Assembly: GCA_012840465.1 (NCBI GenBank)
Contig: DULJ01000040.1
Location: 186,001-250,000, forward strand
Length of the DNA: 64,000 nucleotides
Direction of reading: 5' to 3'
Source of the DNA: Caryophanales bacterium
GTDB taxonomy: Bacteria; Bacillota; Bacilli; Bacillales; Bacillaceae_J
The notes under the pieces are model-generated. The model was not told where the DNA came from and made no database searches. It worked only from the letters and a program-made list of their open reading frames with translations. A program made the position numbers and the translations under genes. The first letter of the stretch is position 1. Every line of letters begins with the position of its first letter. Of this stretch, positions 3,600-59,204 are shown piece by piece.

Positions 3600-4211
3600 A
3601 TGGCTAAATTTGAATTACCACAATTACCTTATGCATACGATGCATTAGAACCACACATTGATGCTAGGACAATGGAAATCCACCATACGAAACATCATAA
3701 CACTTATGTAACAAACTTAAATAATGCTCTTGAAGGAAATGAAGAGTTGTTAAGCAAGTCAGTTGAAGAAGTGGTTGCCAACCTTGATGCAGTTCCTGAA
3801 GCAGTACGTACAGCTGTACGCAACAACGGTGGTGGTCATGCAAACCATACATTATTCTGGACTGTAATGAGCCCAAATGGCGGTGGCGCACCAACTGGTG
3901 AGCTTGCTGATGCGATTACGCAAAAATTTGGCAGCTTTGATGCATTCAAAGAAGAGTTCAATAAAGCAGCTGCAACTCGTTTTGGTTCTGGTTGGGCTTG
4001 GTTAGCAGTTAATAATGGCCAGCTTGAAGTTACAAGTACACCAAACCAAGACACTCCATTAATGGAAGGAAAAACACCAATCCTTGGTTTAGACGTTTGG
4101 GAGCATGCTTATTACTTAAACTATCAAAACCGTCGTCCTGACTACATTGGTGCGTTCTGGAAGGTAATTAACTGGGAAGAAGTTGCAAAACGTTATAACG
4201 CAGCAAAATAA
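3600..4211 (+). CDS. sodA: SodA, manganese superoxide dismutase
   Basis: Cytosolic enzyme that dismutates superoxide to oxygen and hydrogen peroxide. The 203 residues are the normal length. Metal ligands are visible: His28 in [10 protein letters not shown], His in [10 protein letters not shown], and Asp/His in [17 protein letters not shown] is the typical Mn/Fe-SOD core. The ATG has a strong AGGAGG site (ATTAGGAGGAGATTTTATT). Single-gene unit with its own promoter and a strong terminator. Confidence 0.98.
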
Positions 4212-7770: not shown

Positions 7771-8538
7771 ATGAGTTCTGTAAAAAATCTTGTTTTTGAA
7801 ACAAAGAACTTAAATCTCTGGTATGGTGATGACCATGCTTTAAAAGAAATAAATCTGCCGATCTATGAAAATGAAGTAACTGCGATTATCGGCCCATCAG
7901 GGTGTGGTAAATCAACTTATATAAAAACCTTAAACCGAATGGTCGAAATGATTCCTATTGTGAAAATCTCCGGAGAGATTTTATATCGAGGTAAAAATAT
8001 TTTCGATAAATCCTATGAAGTGGAAGAGCTGCGTACTAGGGTTGGAATGGTGTTCCAAAAGCCAAACCCATTTCCAAAATCGATTTATGACAATATTGCA
8101 TACGGTCCAAGAATCCACGGAATTCGTGATCGCCGAATAATCGATGAAATTGTTGAAAAAAGCTTACGTGGTGCAGCAATATGGGATGAAGTAAAGGATA
8201 GGCTCCATGAAAATGCTTATGGTCTATCGGGCGGACAGCAGCAGCGGATTTGTATTGCGAGATGCTTGGCAATTGAACCAGATGTTATTTTAATGGATGA
8301 ACCAACATCAGCTTTGGACCCGATTTCGACTTTAAAAGTAGAAGAGTTATGTCAGGAATTAAAACAAAATTATAGCATTGTTATTGTTACTCATAATATG
8401 CAACAGGCTGCCCGTATTTCCGATCGGACTGCATTTTTCCTTAGCGGGGAAGTCATTGAATATGAACCAACAGATCAGATTTTCTCCAAACCAAAGGATA
8501 AAAGGACAGAGGATTACATTACGGGTCGTTTTGGCTAA
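7771..8538 (+). CDS. pstB: PstB, phosphate ABC transporter ATPase
   Basis: 255-aa ATPase powering phosphate uptake. Walker [10 protein letters not shown], signature LSGGQQQR, Walker [13 protein letters not shown] and switch His in IVTHNMQQA are all intact. The [26 protein letters not shown] stretch is characteristic of PstB. Only one pstB is present, where B. subtilis has two. AGGAGG site; 11 bp after pstA. Confidence 0.97.
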
Positions 8539-26998: not shown

Positions 26999-27145
26999 AT
27001 CAAATATACCTCGGCGTATTTGCACTCAGAGTTTTTAGGCCCACAGGATGTGGGTCACAAAGACGTGACCACAGGACGTGGCGTTCTTGGTCTTTGATCT
27101 TAGCTCGAAAAACTACCTTTGAAAATCTGAGGCATCCTGAATAAG
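26999..27145 (-). repeat. Hairpin-rich dispersed repeat, copy B (left part deleted)
   Basis: Read on the minus strand it runs from CTTATTCAG, through GATGCCTCAGATTTTCAAAGGTAG, the CACGTCCTGTGG and CCCACATCCTGTGGG hairpins, to ATATTTGAT. The first 100 or so bases of a full copy are missing. Its left end supplies the last codons (IQDASDFQR) and stop of the regulator gene. Confidence 0.85.
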
Positions 27146-31754: not shown

Positions 31755-31908
31755 AGTTAAAGCCTCCGGCGGATGCCTCAGATTTTTTAAAGGTAGTTTT
31801 TCGAGCAGATCAAAGACTAAGAACGCCACATCCTGTGGCAACGTCTTTGTGACCCACGTCCTGCGGGCCTAAAAAATCTGGGCGCAAATGCGCCAAGGCA
31901 CATTTTAT
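31717..31908 (+). repeat. Hairpin-rich dispersed repeat, copy C, inside the comG operon
   Basis: 192 bp from TTAACTTTATTCAG to CACATTTTAT. The left module is shortened to a near-perfect 17-bp hairpin AACTTTATTCAGTGGGG / CCCCTACTGAATAAAGTT. It lies between comGF and comGG, with its left 38 bp coding the ComGF tail, and places several hairpins inside the comG mRNA. Confidence 0.88.
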
Positions 31909-37060: not shown

Positions 37061-37090
37061 TGATAAAAATTATATATTTGCGAATGATAA
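37061..37090 (+). promoter_or_regulatory. Possible promoter of the gcv riboswitch leader
   Basis: TTGATA (37061-37066), 18-bp spacer, TGATAA (37085-37090) just before the GGGGAGAG that begins the aptamer. The -10 match is poor, so this is tentative. Confidence 0.4.
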
Positions 37091-37093
37091 CAT

Positions 37094-37385
37094 GGGGAGA
37101 GACCACAGCTTTCAATTTTATACTATCAGTATTTTTTTATTTCTCGTCGATAGTATAAGAAAGAACATCGACTTCCGCCATTATGGGCGGCAAGTCGTGT
37201 CTTTCTAAACGACGTGTCATGTGGCGCCGAAGGAGCAAGCAACAAGGAGTTGTGAATCTCTCAGGCAAAAAGACTCTTGTTGGACGCAACTCTGGAGAGA
37301 GCTTGTATAAGCCACCCACGAGGAAGTAAACCATTTTAAAACCATGTATGGAGCTGGTTGAAAACTTTCTGGTAACAGGACAGAG
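37094..37385 (+). ncRNA. Tandem glycine riboswitch
   Basis: Aptamer 1 starts GGGGAGAGACC and contains GCGCCGAAGGAGCAAGC, GTGAATCTCTCAGGCAAAAAGAC, and GGACGCAACTCTGGAGAG; aptamer 2 follows with CCCACGAGGAAGTAAAC ... AAACTTTCTGGTAACAGGACAGAG. This is the two-aptamer Bacillus gcvT layout. The first side arm of aptamer 1 (about 37101-37223) is much longer than the roughly 25 nt in B. subtilis, with two extra stems TTATACTATC/GATAGTATAA and CGACTTCCGCC/GGGCGGCAAGTCG. Glycine binding should turn on the downstream gcv genes. Confidence 0.93.
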
Positions 37386-37422: not shown

Positions 37423-37673
37423 AACTTCATTCAGCAGAAGTCTCCCCCTTCTATAAGTGGTGAGATGAAAGCAAATTAGTATTTTAAATTCAGCGGGGTA
37501 CAAACCCCTGCTGAATAAAGTTAAAGCCTCCGGCGGATGCCACAGATTTTAAAAGGTAGCTTTTCGAGCTAAGATCAAAGACTAAGAACGCCACGTCCTG
37601 TGGCCACGTCTTTGTGACCCACATCCTGTGGGCCTAAAAAGTCTGGGCGCAAATACGCCAAGGCGAATTTGAT
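37421..37673 (+). repeat. Hairpin-rich dispersed repeat, copy E, in the gcvT leader
   Basis: Full-length 253-bp copy from TTAACTTCATTCAGCAG to GCGAATTTGAT. Inserted at the T run of the riboswitch terminator, it lengthens the gcvT leader so that read-through transcripts carry the whole repeat before the gcvT ribosome site. Confidence 0.92.
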
Positions 37674-47471: not shown

Positions 47472-47511
47472 AGTTAGGGGTTTGTCAGAACTCGATGAAA
47501 TTTAACTGAGA

Positions 47512-47545
47512 GAGCCGTATGCGGGGAAACTTGCACGTACGGTTC
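47512..47545 (+). ncRNA. Group II intron domain V
   Basis: 34-nt catalytic hairpin GAGCCGTAT-GCGGGGAAACTTGCACG-TACGGTTC, a textbook domain V including the GAAA tetraloop and catalytic triad region. Confidence 0.95.
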
Positions 47546-47606
47546 GCAGGGGGAGGTCGGAAAAAGTGGTAGATTATACTACTAACTCGTCCGTCTTCTA
47601 CCCGAC

Positions 47607-50221: not shown

Positions 50222-50795
50222 TATCTAAAAGAACGAGAACAACTAAAATTGACAAATGGATTAAAGAAGATCGTGGGTCTGGGATTGGCTCGGATTATAA
50301 ACCTTGGTTGAATATTCAAGATGTCTCTTCGTTAGGTCGCTCTATTCGATTGAAATGAATCAAAACAGGAAGGTAGCACGAATTCTTATCCGATTTGGAA
50401 CGAAATTACTTTTATTTAACTTCATTCAGCAGAAGTCTCCCCCTTCCATAAGTGGTGAGATGAATACAAGTTAGTATTTTAAATTCAGTGTGGGTACAAA
50501 CCCCTGCTGAATAAAGTTAAAGCCTCCGGCGGATGCCACAGATTTTAAAAGGTAACTTTTCGAGCAGATCAAAGACTAAGAACGCCACATCCTGTGGCAA
50601 TGTCGTTGTGACCCACATCCTGTGGGCCTAAAAATTTGGGCGCAAATACTCCAAGGCGAATTTGATCTGAATACTTGGATTTCGTTATTGATACAAGAGA
50701 ACAATTTCCTTTATTTCCGTTGGTAGAAATAACTTTTTTATTTCAGTATCCTTAAAAGCCAATCAAACCCACCCATCCAAGTAAAGTCCTATCAT
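50221..50795 (+). pseudogene. tnsA pseudogene (Tn7-type transposition endonuclease), split by repeat copy F
   Basis: 50221-50415 encodes SKRTRTTKIDKWIKEDRGSG..DYKPWLNIQDVSSLGRSIRLK-stop-IKTGR-stop-HEFLSDLERNYFYL, and 50667-50795 continues EYLDFVIDTREQFPLFPLVE ... KPTHPSK. Both halves line up with the N-terminal catalytic region of Tn7-like TnsA. Two in-frame stops (TGA, TAG), later degeneration, and the 251-bp repeat make it dead. No tnsB, tnsC or tniQ remains in the window. Confidence 0.75.
50416..50666 (+). repeat. Hairpin-rich dispersed repeat, copy F, inserted in tnsA
   Basis: Full-length 251-bp copy from TTAACTTCATTCAGCAG to GCGAATTTGAT. Because the tnsA coding sequence resumes on the far side, both ends of the element are defined to within a few bases. 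No clear target-site duplication is seen. Confidence 0.92.
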
Positions 50796-58047: not shown

Positions 58048-58370
58048 GATTTTTACTCCTTAATAGAAACTGTTAATAAAATACCATTTGGAGGATATAA
58101 TTGGAAGATAGTTTTTGTGACCAATATGACCAAAACTAGGTTGAAGGCTTGATTTGATTTCGAGAGATAGAGTAATGGTTTTCTTTTTGCTTTAAAGTAT
58201 GGAAATCATCCTGAATATGTTGCGTAAGCTGCTTTATTGAATAACGGGAAAAATTTCATCGTCGCATCGAAGACAAGCCCGTTATCTATATATTTATTTA
58301 TGATCTGAAACGTTCCAAGATTTGACACAATTACTCTGAAAAAATAGGTGAGGAACGTGGTATATTATAG
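58048..58370. other. Intergenic region before the large RNA candidate
   Basis: No coding frame. ATAACGGG (58241-58248) and CCCGTTAT (58278-58285) form a perfect 8-bp stem around a 29-nt loop, role unknown. TG-g-TATATT (58358-58366) is a possible extended -10 for the RNA that follows; no matching -35. Confidence 0.4.
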
Positions 58371-59115
58371 ATGTAAGGAAGAAACAAACAAAACATTACC
58401 CAATTGACATTGGAGGCGGCTCAACCATCCTAGTTAGTTCCGTTAACTAGGTAGTATTCGGAATTATTGTTGGAAAAAGGAAAGTAGATGAATCCACTAG
58501 GAGCTTTCTGATTTACAAGGTAATAACATGAAATGATAGGAGTCCACAGAAAAAGTCTATAAACTTCAAAAGTAATTGAAGGATCATCAAACAGTAGGAT
58601 ACCTAGTAAAATAGGAAACTGAAATTAACGAAAGCTGTTCGAAAAGAAGGGAATTGATTAAAGCTCCAACCGAAAGGAGGAAGAACTAAAATCAAAACCC
58701 GGATTAATGAACAAAAGCAATCGTTAAGAAAAGCAACCTATTGAACAAAGTAAAATACATGGAGGATGACAATTTAAATTACTTTGGAGCAAATGGAAAT
58801 GAGTAAGTGAAAACTCAAGTTAAGTTTCAGACCGATTTAATTGAATATGAGCGTTAAAAGCTTTTGGATGTACCCAATCTTTACAAGATTGTAAATGAAA
58901 TAGCCGCGGAGCTAATGAAAACATCCTTAAAAAACACTTCCATTGGCAGTCCCGAGAGACTGTAATTTGAAAATGAATTTAGAAGTGTTTACGAACCCAT
59001 CCAGGGTTGAAAATGTGAACTGAAAGGTAAGCTTTTCGATTAGGATGAAGAATGGTTGGGTCACCTGCAATGTCAAACAAAAAGAGTTCGATTCATAATC
59101 GAACTCTTTTTGTTT
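58371..59115 (+). ncRNA. Large structured non-coding RNA candidate
   Basis: About 0.7 kb with no ORF of note. Its ends pair: 58404-58428 (TTGACATTGGAGGCGGCTCAACCAT) with 59052-59076 (ATGGTTGGGTCACCTGCAATGTCAA), 25 positions with two mismatches and two G-U pairs. Inside are many local hairpins: CCTAGTTA/TAACTAGG, CTTCAA/TTGAAG, CC-GAAA-GG, CAATCTT/AAGATTG, TAGC/GCTA, AAACACTTC/GAAGTGTTT enclosing GCAGTC/GACTGT, AACCC/GGGTT; loops are A-rich. The transcript would end at the 19-bp terminator. It recalls the OLE/GOLLD/ROOL class of large RNAs, but I cannot assign it. Confidence 0.7.
59075..59115. terminator. Perfect bidirectional terminator
   Basis: AAACAAAAAGAGTTCGATT-cat-AATCGAACTCTTTTTGTTT, 19 of 19 pairs, directly after the closing helix of the RNA candidate. 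Confidence 0.93.
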
Positions 59116-59204
59116 GGTCTAAAGTTTTAATTTTGTTCTATTTCCATTACCTGCCGCTTAGGATTTAATGATACGAACAAAGTCATAACCTAAGGAGGAC
59201 GTAT

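Follow-up and report, generated by a model that had tools for sequence, protein, structure and literature searches.

The window, a 64,000-nucleotide stretch of DNA from a Caryophanales bacterium, contains at positions 58371 to 59115 a region free of plus-strand open reading frames (ORFs) of at least 50 amino acids, in keeping with a preliminary description that had found no gene there. Its neighbors are a Spo0E-like gene and genes for a YgaP-like membrane protein, a yqhO-type patatin-like phospholipase, YqhR, dehydroquinase II and an M24 peptidase; the yqhO-type gene lies on the same strand, 89 nt past the terminator-like stem that ends the region. The long helix that had been proposed to join the two ends of the region was recovered exactly, with 58404 to 58428 facing 59052 to 59076, 23 of the 25 positions paired, two mismatches and two G-U pairs. 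The interior is predicted to fold into local hairpins, as had been described. The terminator, previously given as 19 bp, is a perfect 18-bp stem with a 3-nt loop at 59076 to 59114 and reaches 19 bp when 59075 and 59115 are added. The features of the locus are collected in Table 1, where P1 denotes the closing helix, P2 and P3 further helices of the core and H1 a local hairpin.

Table 1. Features of the RNA locus and other RNAs in the window
Feature	Position	Strand	Basis or remark
Extended -10 promoter element, TG-G-TATATT	58358-58366	+	Sequence; just before 58371
Predicted transcript start and 5' leader (ATGTAAGGAAGA...)	58371-58403	+	Similar in relatives (alignment, 19 members); start predicted from the -10
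P1 closing helix, 5' strand	58404-58428	+	94.7% of cells paired; both-side changes in 13/25 pairs
H1 local hairpin (CCTAGTTAG/TTAACTAGG)	58429-58451	+	Overlaps P2
P2 long-range helix, 5' strand (GTTAGTTCCG)	58433-58442	+	86.1% of cells paired; both-side changes in 5/10 pairs
Variable interior domain: local hairpins, A-rich linkers	58452-58906	+	Fold; length very different among members
P2 long-range helix, 3' strand (CGGAGCTAAT)	58907-58916	+	Covariation, fold
P3 helix, 5' strand (CATCCTTA)	58922-58929	+	Pairing on A1; strand-swap test
Hairpin ACACTTC/GAAGTGT nested in P3	58934-58940 with 58982-58988	+	89% of cells paired, A1 (nearer relatives)
Hairpin GGCAGTC/GACTGT nested in P3	58945-58951 with 58958-58963	+	91% of cells paired, A1 (nearer relatives)
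Hairpin AACCC/GGGTT inside P3	58993-59009	+	69% of cells paired: weak
P3 helix, 3' strand (TTAGGATG)	59040-59047	+	Pairing on A1; strand-swap test
P1 closing helix, 3' strand	59052-59076	+	Covariation, pairing
Terminator-like stem after P1	59075-59115	+	Sequence, fold; the stem at 59076-59114 begins on the last base of P1
Bacillaceae-1 RNA (RF01690)	27040-27106	-	Rfam 15
Bacillaceae-1 RNA (RF01690)	31801-31867, 37566-37632, 50560-50626	+	Rfam 15
Glycine riboswitch (RF00504)	37084-37286	+	Rfam 15
Group II intron 3' end (RF00029)	47510-47606	+	Rfam 15

The plus strand of 58371 to 59115 had a predicted folding energy of -200.6 kcal/mol, compared with -144.5 ± 7.3 kcal/mol for 20 dinucleotide shuffles (z = -7.6), and none of the shuffles equaled it. 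Since the minus strand of the region also folds well (z = -9.0), folding energy alone cannot pick the strand; we chose the plus strand because a -10-like element precedes the helix and because G-U pairs are kept within the helix. A two-hexamer promoter and terminator scan flagged neither this -10 element nor the terminator at 59076 to 59114, the former because no -35 stands at the usual spacing and the latter because its Ts sit inside the stem. Promoter-like matches were no more frequent in the region than in shuffled sequence (8 versus 10.2).

Homologs in the order and known RNA families

Related genomes, in which the preliminary description had proposed to look for homologs, yielded them both within the genus and across the order, by blastn and with covariance models. 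Within the genus, relatives of nearly full length (91% and 89%) were present in two of three congeners. In a congener without a match to the RNA (G002), homology to the window sets in again at 59129, that is, 14 nt past the terminator, and the upstream side is unrelated. Among 397 genomes of the order, blastn gave a match in 18, many of them at the two ends only; in several of the 18, both ends were found in the right order with a few hundred bases between them. Some of the 18 are short interior matches, which were not accepted as members. A sequence pattern for the 5' end recovered 16 stretches in named genomes, 14 of them from Bacillales-type genera: Heyndrickxia acidiproducens, Salirhabdus euzebyi, Schinkia azotoformans, Bacillus coahuilensis and Pseudalkalibacillus caeni (in the last two, the 3' end lies outside the named pattern locus), two Oceanobacillus, four Aquibacillus, a metagenome-assembled genome named Alkalihalobacillus macyae, Caldibacillus thermoamylovorans and Alkalihalobacterium elongatum. 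Two pattern matches were not accepted, one in Planctomycetaceae (L039), where no 3' motif follows downstream, and one in Deltaproteobacteria (L047), where the sequence ends too early to judge.

We used two covariance models, R1 covering the 3' domain and R2 built from shorter, divergent members. R1 found the RNA in 46 and R2 in 55 of the 397 sampled species of the order, with a union of 63. In a sample of the class, R1 found it in 4 of 200 genomes, 2 of which lie outside the order, and the only R2 hit among 199 genomes of a phylum sample was the window's own genome. From P1 to P1, 67 members measure 319 to 755 nt (median, 516 nt). Some genomes have two members, and two (G329 and G267) have three in tandem. 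Tandem triplets were seen at L166 (5' motifs at 4045, 4618 and 5967) and L167 (4069, 4661 and 6024), each member with its own 3' end. At L119, a weak third match between two full copies (7997 to 8138, plus strand, E = 0.005) is perhaps a decayed copy. The architecture counts below rest on 53 loci, after L130, an antisense match of a palindromic arm, was dropped from 54, or on 67 after 14 had been added; L166c, L167c and L119c were excluded from the 67 for a misassigned 5' partner or a weak match. The core alignment A2 has 46 rows, L125 (motif out of register) and six identical rows having been removed from the 53. L132 to L134 and further near-identical members are not in alignment A4.

Against the 4227 models of Rfam 15, the window gave 13 matches above gathering, none of them on the RNA. 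Four copies of Bacillaceae-1 RNA lie inside the window, within a span of 24 kb. Like the new RNA, Bacillaceae-1 RNA is a function-unassigned RNA of the same group; it differs in its length of 67 nt and its unrelated sequence.

The preliminary description had left the choice between a new class and a divergent OLE, GOLLD or ROOL RNA. These families have in common with the region a similar size, the long end-to-end helix and the interior hairpins, and OLE is common in the order. When 58250 to 59180 was searched against Rfam 15 at E values of up to 10, eight matches appeared, all far under gathering and mostly on the terminator, and the OLE, GOLLD and ROOL models that had been suggested for this search matched nowhere in the region; 20 other member loci (E of up to 0.5) gave one chance-level match, again to none of the three. 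Identity with OLE is refuted, as RF01071 is absent from the region and present elsewhere in the same genome, outside the window (G000:C58:72583-73212, minus strand, E = 2.0e-147). As a positive control, the search recovered OLE from 217 of 382 genomes of the order. If the genomes searched are taken to be G000 to G381, it occurs in 44 of the 61 carriers of the new RNA versus 173 of 321 noncarriers (382 genomes; P = 0.011, uncorrected for ancestry), and 17 of the 61 carriers lack it. The two RNAs are alike in being about 0.6 kb long, highly structured and chromosomal, in the same order and often in the same genome, whereas the new RNA has no sequence or model similarity to OLE, a separate locus, a very variable size, varying neighbors and CcpA- and Rex-type sites upstream.

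ROOL and GOLLD are likewise large RNAs with end-to-end closure and many hairpins, which, according to one study, occur in phages and in prophages close to tRNA islands (PMC12286853). No tRNA island or phage context was seen at the loci of the new RNA, and the setting is chromosomal. In contrast to ROOL and GOLLD, the new RNA had no genuine counterpart in viral contigs, phages or plasmids with the queries used here: blastn of phages and plasmids found none, neither of two patterns occurred in any viral contig, and a looser pattern fitted 62 viral stretches, by our own estimate about the chance level for such a short pattern, in none of which R2 recognized the 3' domain (best E = 0.65). A phage or plasmid origin is thus unsupported. 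Membership of GOLLD or ROOL was rejected on the missing model matches, in the region and at the 20 other loci, together with the nonphage context. Of the two options first offered, the divergent member therefore has next to nothing left to recommend it, and the new class is favored. As a kind of molecule, the new RNA joins OLE, GOLLD and ROOL; as a family, we found no known relative. No description of it turned up in the literature consulted (including PMC11109978, PMC8632094, PMC2864571 and PMC12286853); a 2017 survey of 224 candidate RNAs lay outside this coverage, and an earlier appearance in print is possible.

Conserved core and competing pairings

In the 46 core rows, 92.2% of the cells of P1 and P2 are paired, compared with at most 44.0% when the strands are slid against each other. 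Both sides had changed in 136 cells, versus 38.0 ± 6.3 in shuffles, which do not correct for shared ancestry, and at most 28 in slid alignments, and 18 pairs had both-side changes, versus 12.0 ± 1.7 in the shuffles. A strand-swap test on 46 sequence clusters of the 67 members gave z values of 11.0 for P1, 16.3 for its outer 15 bp, 5.2 for P2 and 13.0 for P3, and in none of these three helices did any of 2000 permutations match the native pairing. For the 54 loci and for 17 later ones, pairing energy had been part of the choice of the 5' partner, which favors P1; in another set, the motif alone decided. Single positions deviate: column 14/57 of P1 and column 29/42 of P2 are each unpaired in 22 of 46 rows. 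On the 46 core sequences, with shared ancestry uncorrected in the shuffles, P1 and P2 covary as aligned, so that compensatory changes, on which the preliminary description had made its RNA reading of the closing helix depend, are present among the homologs. Results for P3 were more mixed. On A4, five of its pairs showed both-side changes versus 4.6 in shuffles, and a slide of -1 gave more such cells (17 versus 13). In A1, an alignment of 18 nearer relatives, P3 and its nested hairpins are 89 to 94% paired, both-side changes occur in 13 cells versus 6.3 ± 2.1, and a slide of +2 gave more such pairs (9 versus 7). The covariation term of RNAalifold lent no support in an eight-member alignment of the genus. 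Taken as aligned sequences, the members form an RNA family whose core is under constraint.

P2 is nested directly within P1, and P3 occupies the 3' side between the two, so that both ends meet in a three-way junction. By comparison among members, the core consists of the 25-bp P1, the long-range P2 and P3 beside the 3' strand of P1, with a peripheral domain very variable in size.

A miniature inverted-repeat transposable element (MITE), whose inverted ends would mimic an RNA helix, could also offer near-perfect 25-bp arms, different chromosomal places and a patchy spread, and transposases adjoin two members (L092 on both sides and L169 downstream). Many identical copies, which with target duplications were the mark by which the preliminary description would have recognized a MITE, are not what we found: the window's genome holds a single full-length copy, and other genomes hold at most two or three, divergent or in tandem. 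Column 18/53 of P1 is U-G in 35 of 46 rows and U-A in 11, in line with the earlier argument that G-U pairs in the closing helix speak for RNA. The internal helices also covary, and the promoter and terminator are located outside the arms. We regard the MITE explanation as barely credible.

The bases before and in a TTCC motif can pair either locally, as H1, or with the 3' domain, as P2, so that H1 at the 5' end draws on some of the bases of P2. Over the 67 members, the mean H1 score was 16.0, compared with 13.15 (standard deviation of the mean, 0.32) when the downstream sequence was shuffled, and a score of at least 13 was reached by 61 of 67 members versus 36.5 of 67 in shuffles. H1 and P2, both of at least 5 bp, share at least 2 nt in 56 of the 67. 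Constrained folds of the window's copy gave -178.8 kcal/mol when free, -177.4 with P2 and -175.9 with H1, a difference of 1.5 kcal/mol between H1 and P2. The competition may reflect a folding intermediate or a switch: H1 would form first and be replaced by P2 once the 3' end has been made, or both would exchange upon binding of a partner. Whether this exchange matters seems to us evenly balanced. A ribozyme could likewise combine competing folds and the long-range P2 with large size and with the strict, single-stranded-looking core residues found by the junction. The RNA matches no known ribozyme family, however, and its context hints at no substrate or product, and we consider a ribozyme improbable.

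Predicted transcription unit and candidate upstream operators

Most of the 53 loci carry a TG-TATAAT-like element 22 to 60 nt upstream of P1; it is poor or misplaced in L092, L105, L123 and L131. Of the 67 members, 66 have a terminator-like stem no more than 75 nt downstream of P1, compared with 26 of 67 single-base shuffles. The neighbors of the RNA cluster within genera only, its chromosomal place differs between genera, and Pfam searches of 60 of the 83 nearest neighbors found no family in common. With a promoter-like element, a terminator and no fixed neighbor, the RNA has the predicted makeup of a free-standing unit. Protein coding was rejected, as the window's copy has no long plus-strand ORF and the short ORFs of other members are not conserved across genera. 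Genes with EAL, GGDEF or HD domains adjoin L086, L089, L132 and L109, from four genera, among the 60 neighbors scanned; these are too few for us to claim a link to c-di-GMP. A GAGTC motif stands 16 to 96 nt before the 3' strand of P2 in 24 of 53 loci (4.8 expected); it is lineage-bound, and in one genus it could pair with GACTC or GGCTC in the 5' strand of P1.

The terminator directly after the RNA, the competing pairings and the closely following, co-oriented yqhO-type gene would also suit a cis-regulatory leader, that is, a riboswitch or attenuator of the downstream gene with H1 and P2 as its switch. Across 38 loci, however, the first downstream ORF lies on the same strand as the RNA in only 19 (the nearest upstream ORF does so in 21), the neighbors vary among genera, no antiterminator was seen, and size varies twofold. 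Cis-regulation was rejected on the orientation of the downstream ORFs and the differing neighbors, and a leader is in our view very unlikely.

The binding site consensus of CcpA (cre) is TGWAANCGNTNWCA, and that of Rex-type regulators is TTGTGAANNNNTTCACAA, which includes the Fnr-type TGTGA-N6-TCACA. We searched the 53 upstream regions, of about 115 nt each, for both at zero to one mismatch, with single-base shuffles as a control. A cre-type site was present in 26 of the 53 (11 of them perfect), where 0.5 was expected, and a Rex-type site in 8, where none was expected. Nine of the 26 cre sites, all in a single genus, have GG in place of the central CG, and the two consensus sequences overlap, so that L088, L111 and L125 score as both; since many of the 53 loci are related, the independent cases are fewer. 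Neither the window's own promoter nor the one in L083, its close relative, contained a cre or Rex site at zero to one mismatch. The cre centers lie 48.5 to 51.5 nt (13 sites), 60.5 to 62.5 nt (4 sites) or, in one genus, 33.5 to 35.5 nt (9 sites) before the predicted start, and the Rex-type centers lie 52.5 nt (3 sites) or 61.5 nt (5 sites) before it. These distances are approximate, as they are counted from a predicted start and as different -10 elements were assigned to L101 and L103, whose promoters are nearly identical. The centers are about one DNA turn apart, as expected if the predicted regulators sit in a fixed phase with the polymerase. Judging from these sites, many members are probably under carbon or redox control.

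A candidate trans-acting RNA

That the family is a real RNA class is close to certain in our estimation, and the RNA very probably acts in trans and not in cis, to judge by its genomic arrangement. It would be transcribed from its own promoter, which in many species would be under CcpA and/or a Rex- or Fnr-type regulator and so respond to sugar supply and to NADH or oxygen. The folded core could then act in trans, either by scaffolding an RNA-protein particle or by adjusting carbon and redox metabolism as a regulatory RNA. We lean slightly toward the proposal as a whole, in which the order of the window's species has a new class of large, structured RNA that is encoded in trans and would be tied to carbon and redox state. 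To our knowledge, there are few large bacterial RNAs of conserved architecture, and those that have been studied well are ribozymes, ribosome-linked RNAs or RNA particles.

For the mode of action, one comparison is with RoxS of Bacillus subtilis, a small RNA under redox control that acts via C-rich antisense loops. The new RNA resembles RoxS in being a free-standing RNA gene linked to redox control; it differs in being about six times longer and in having no homology to it. A larger base-pairing regulator of this type, with a loop or linker that binds carbon and redox mRNAs, would fit the CcpA- and Rex-type sites upstream and the A-rich linkers. What is conserved, however, is the paired core and not an unpaired seed, and antisense pairing needs no long structured core. 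We therefore rank a particle or scaffold, which we advance tentatively, above plain antisense pairing, and a RoxS-type regulator appears rather unlikely. Conceivably, though here our doubts outweigh our confidence, the RNA is a widespread unnamed class whose core has two competing folds (H1 or P2), a trans-acting RNA machine for changes in carbon and redox state and a second OLE-like particle, kept besides OLE by most OLE-carrying hosts. Present in about one-sixth of the sampled species of the order (63 of 397), absent from Rfam 15 and equipped with two competing conserved pairings, the class is a tractable new object, and the upstream operators point to the conditions in which to look for the RNA. 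Upstream of many members, for example at L087, L094 and L095, a (G)TCACA or ACACA box recurs between operator and -10, with TTTTCC after it.
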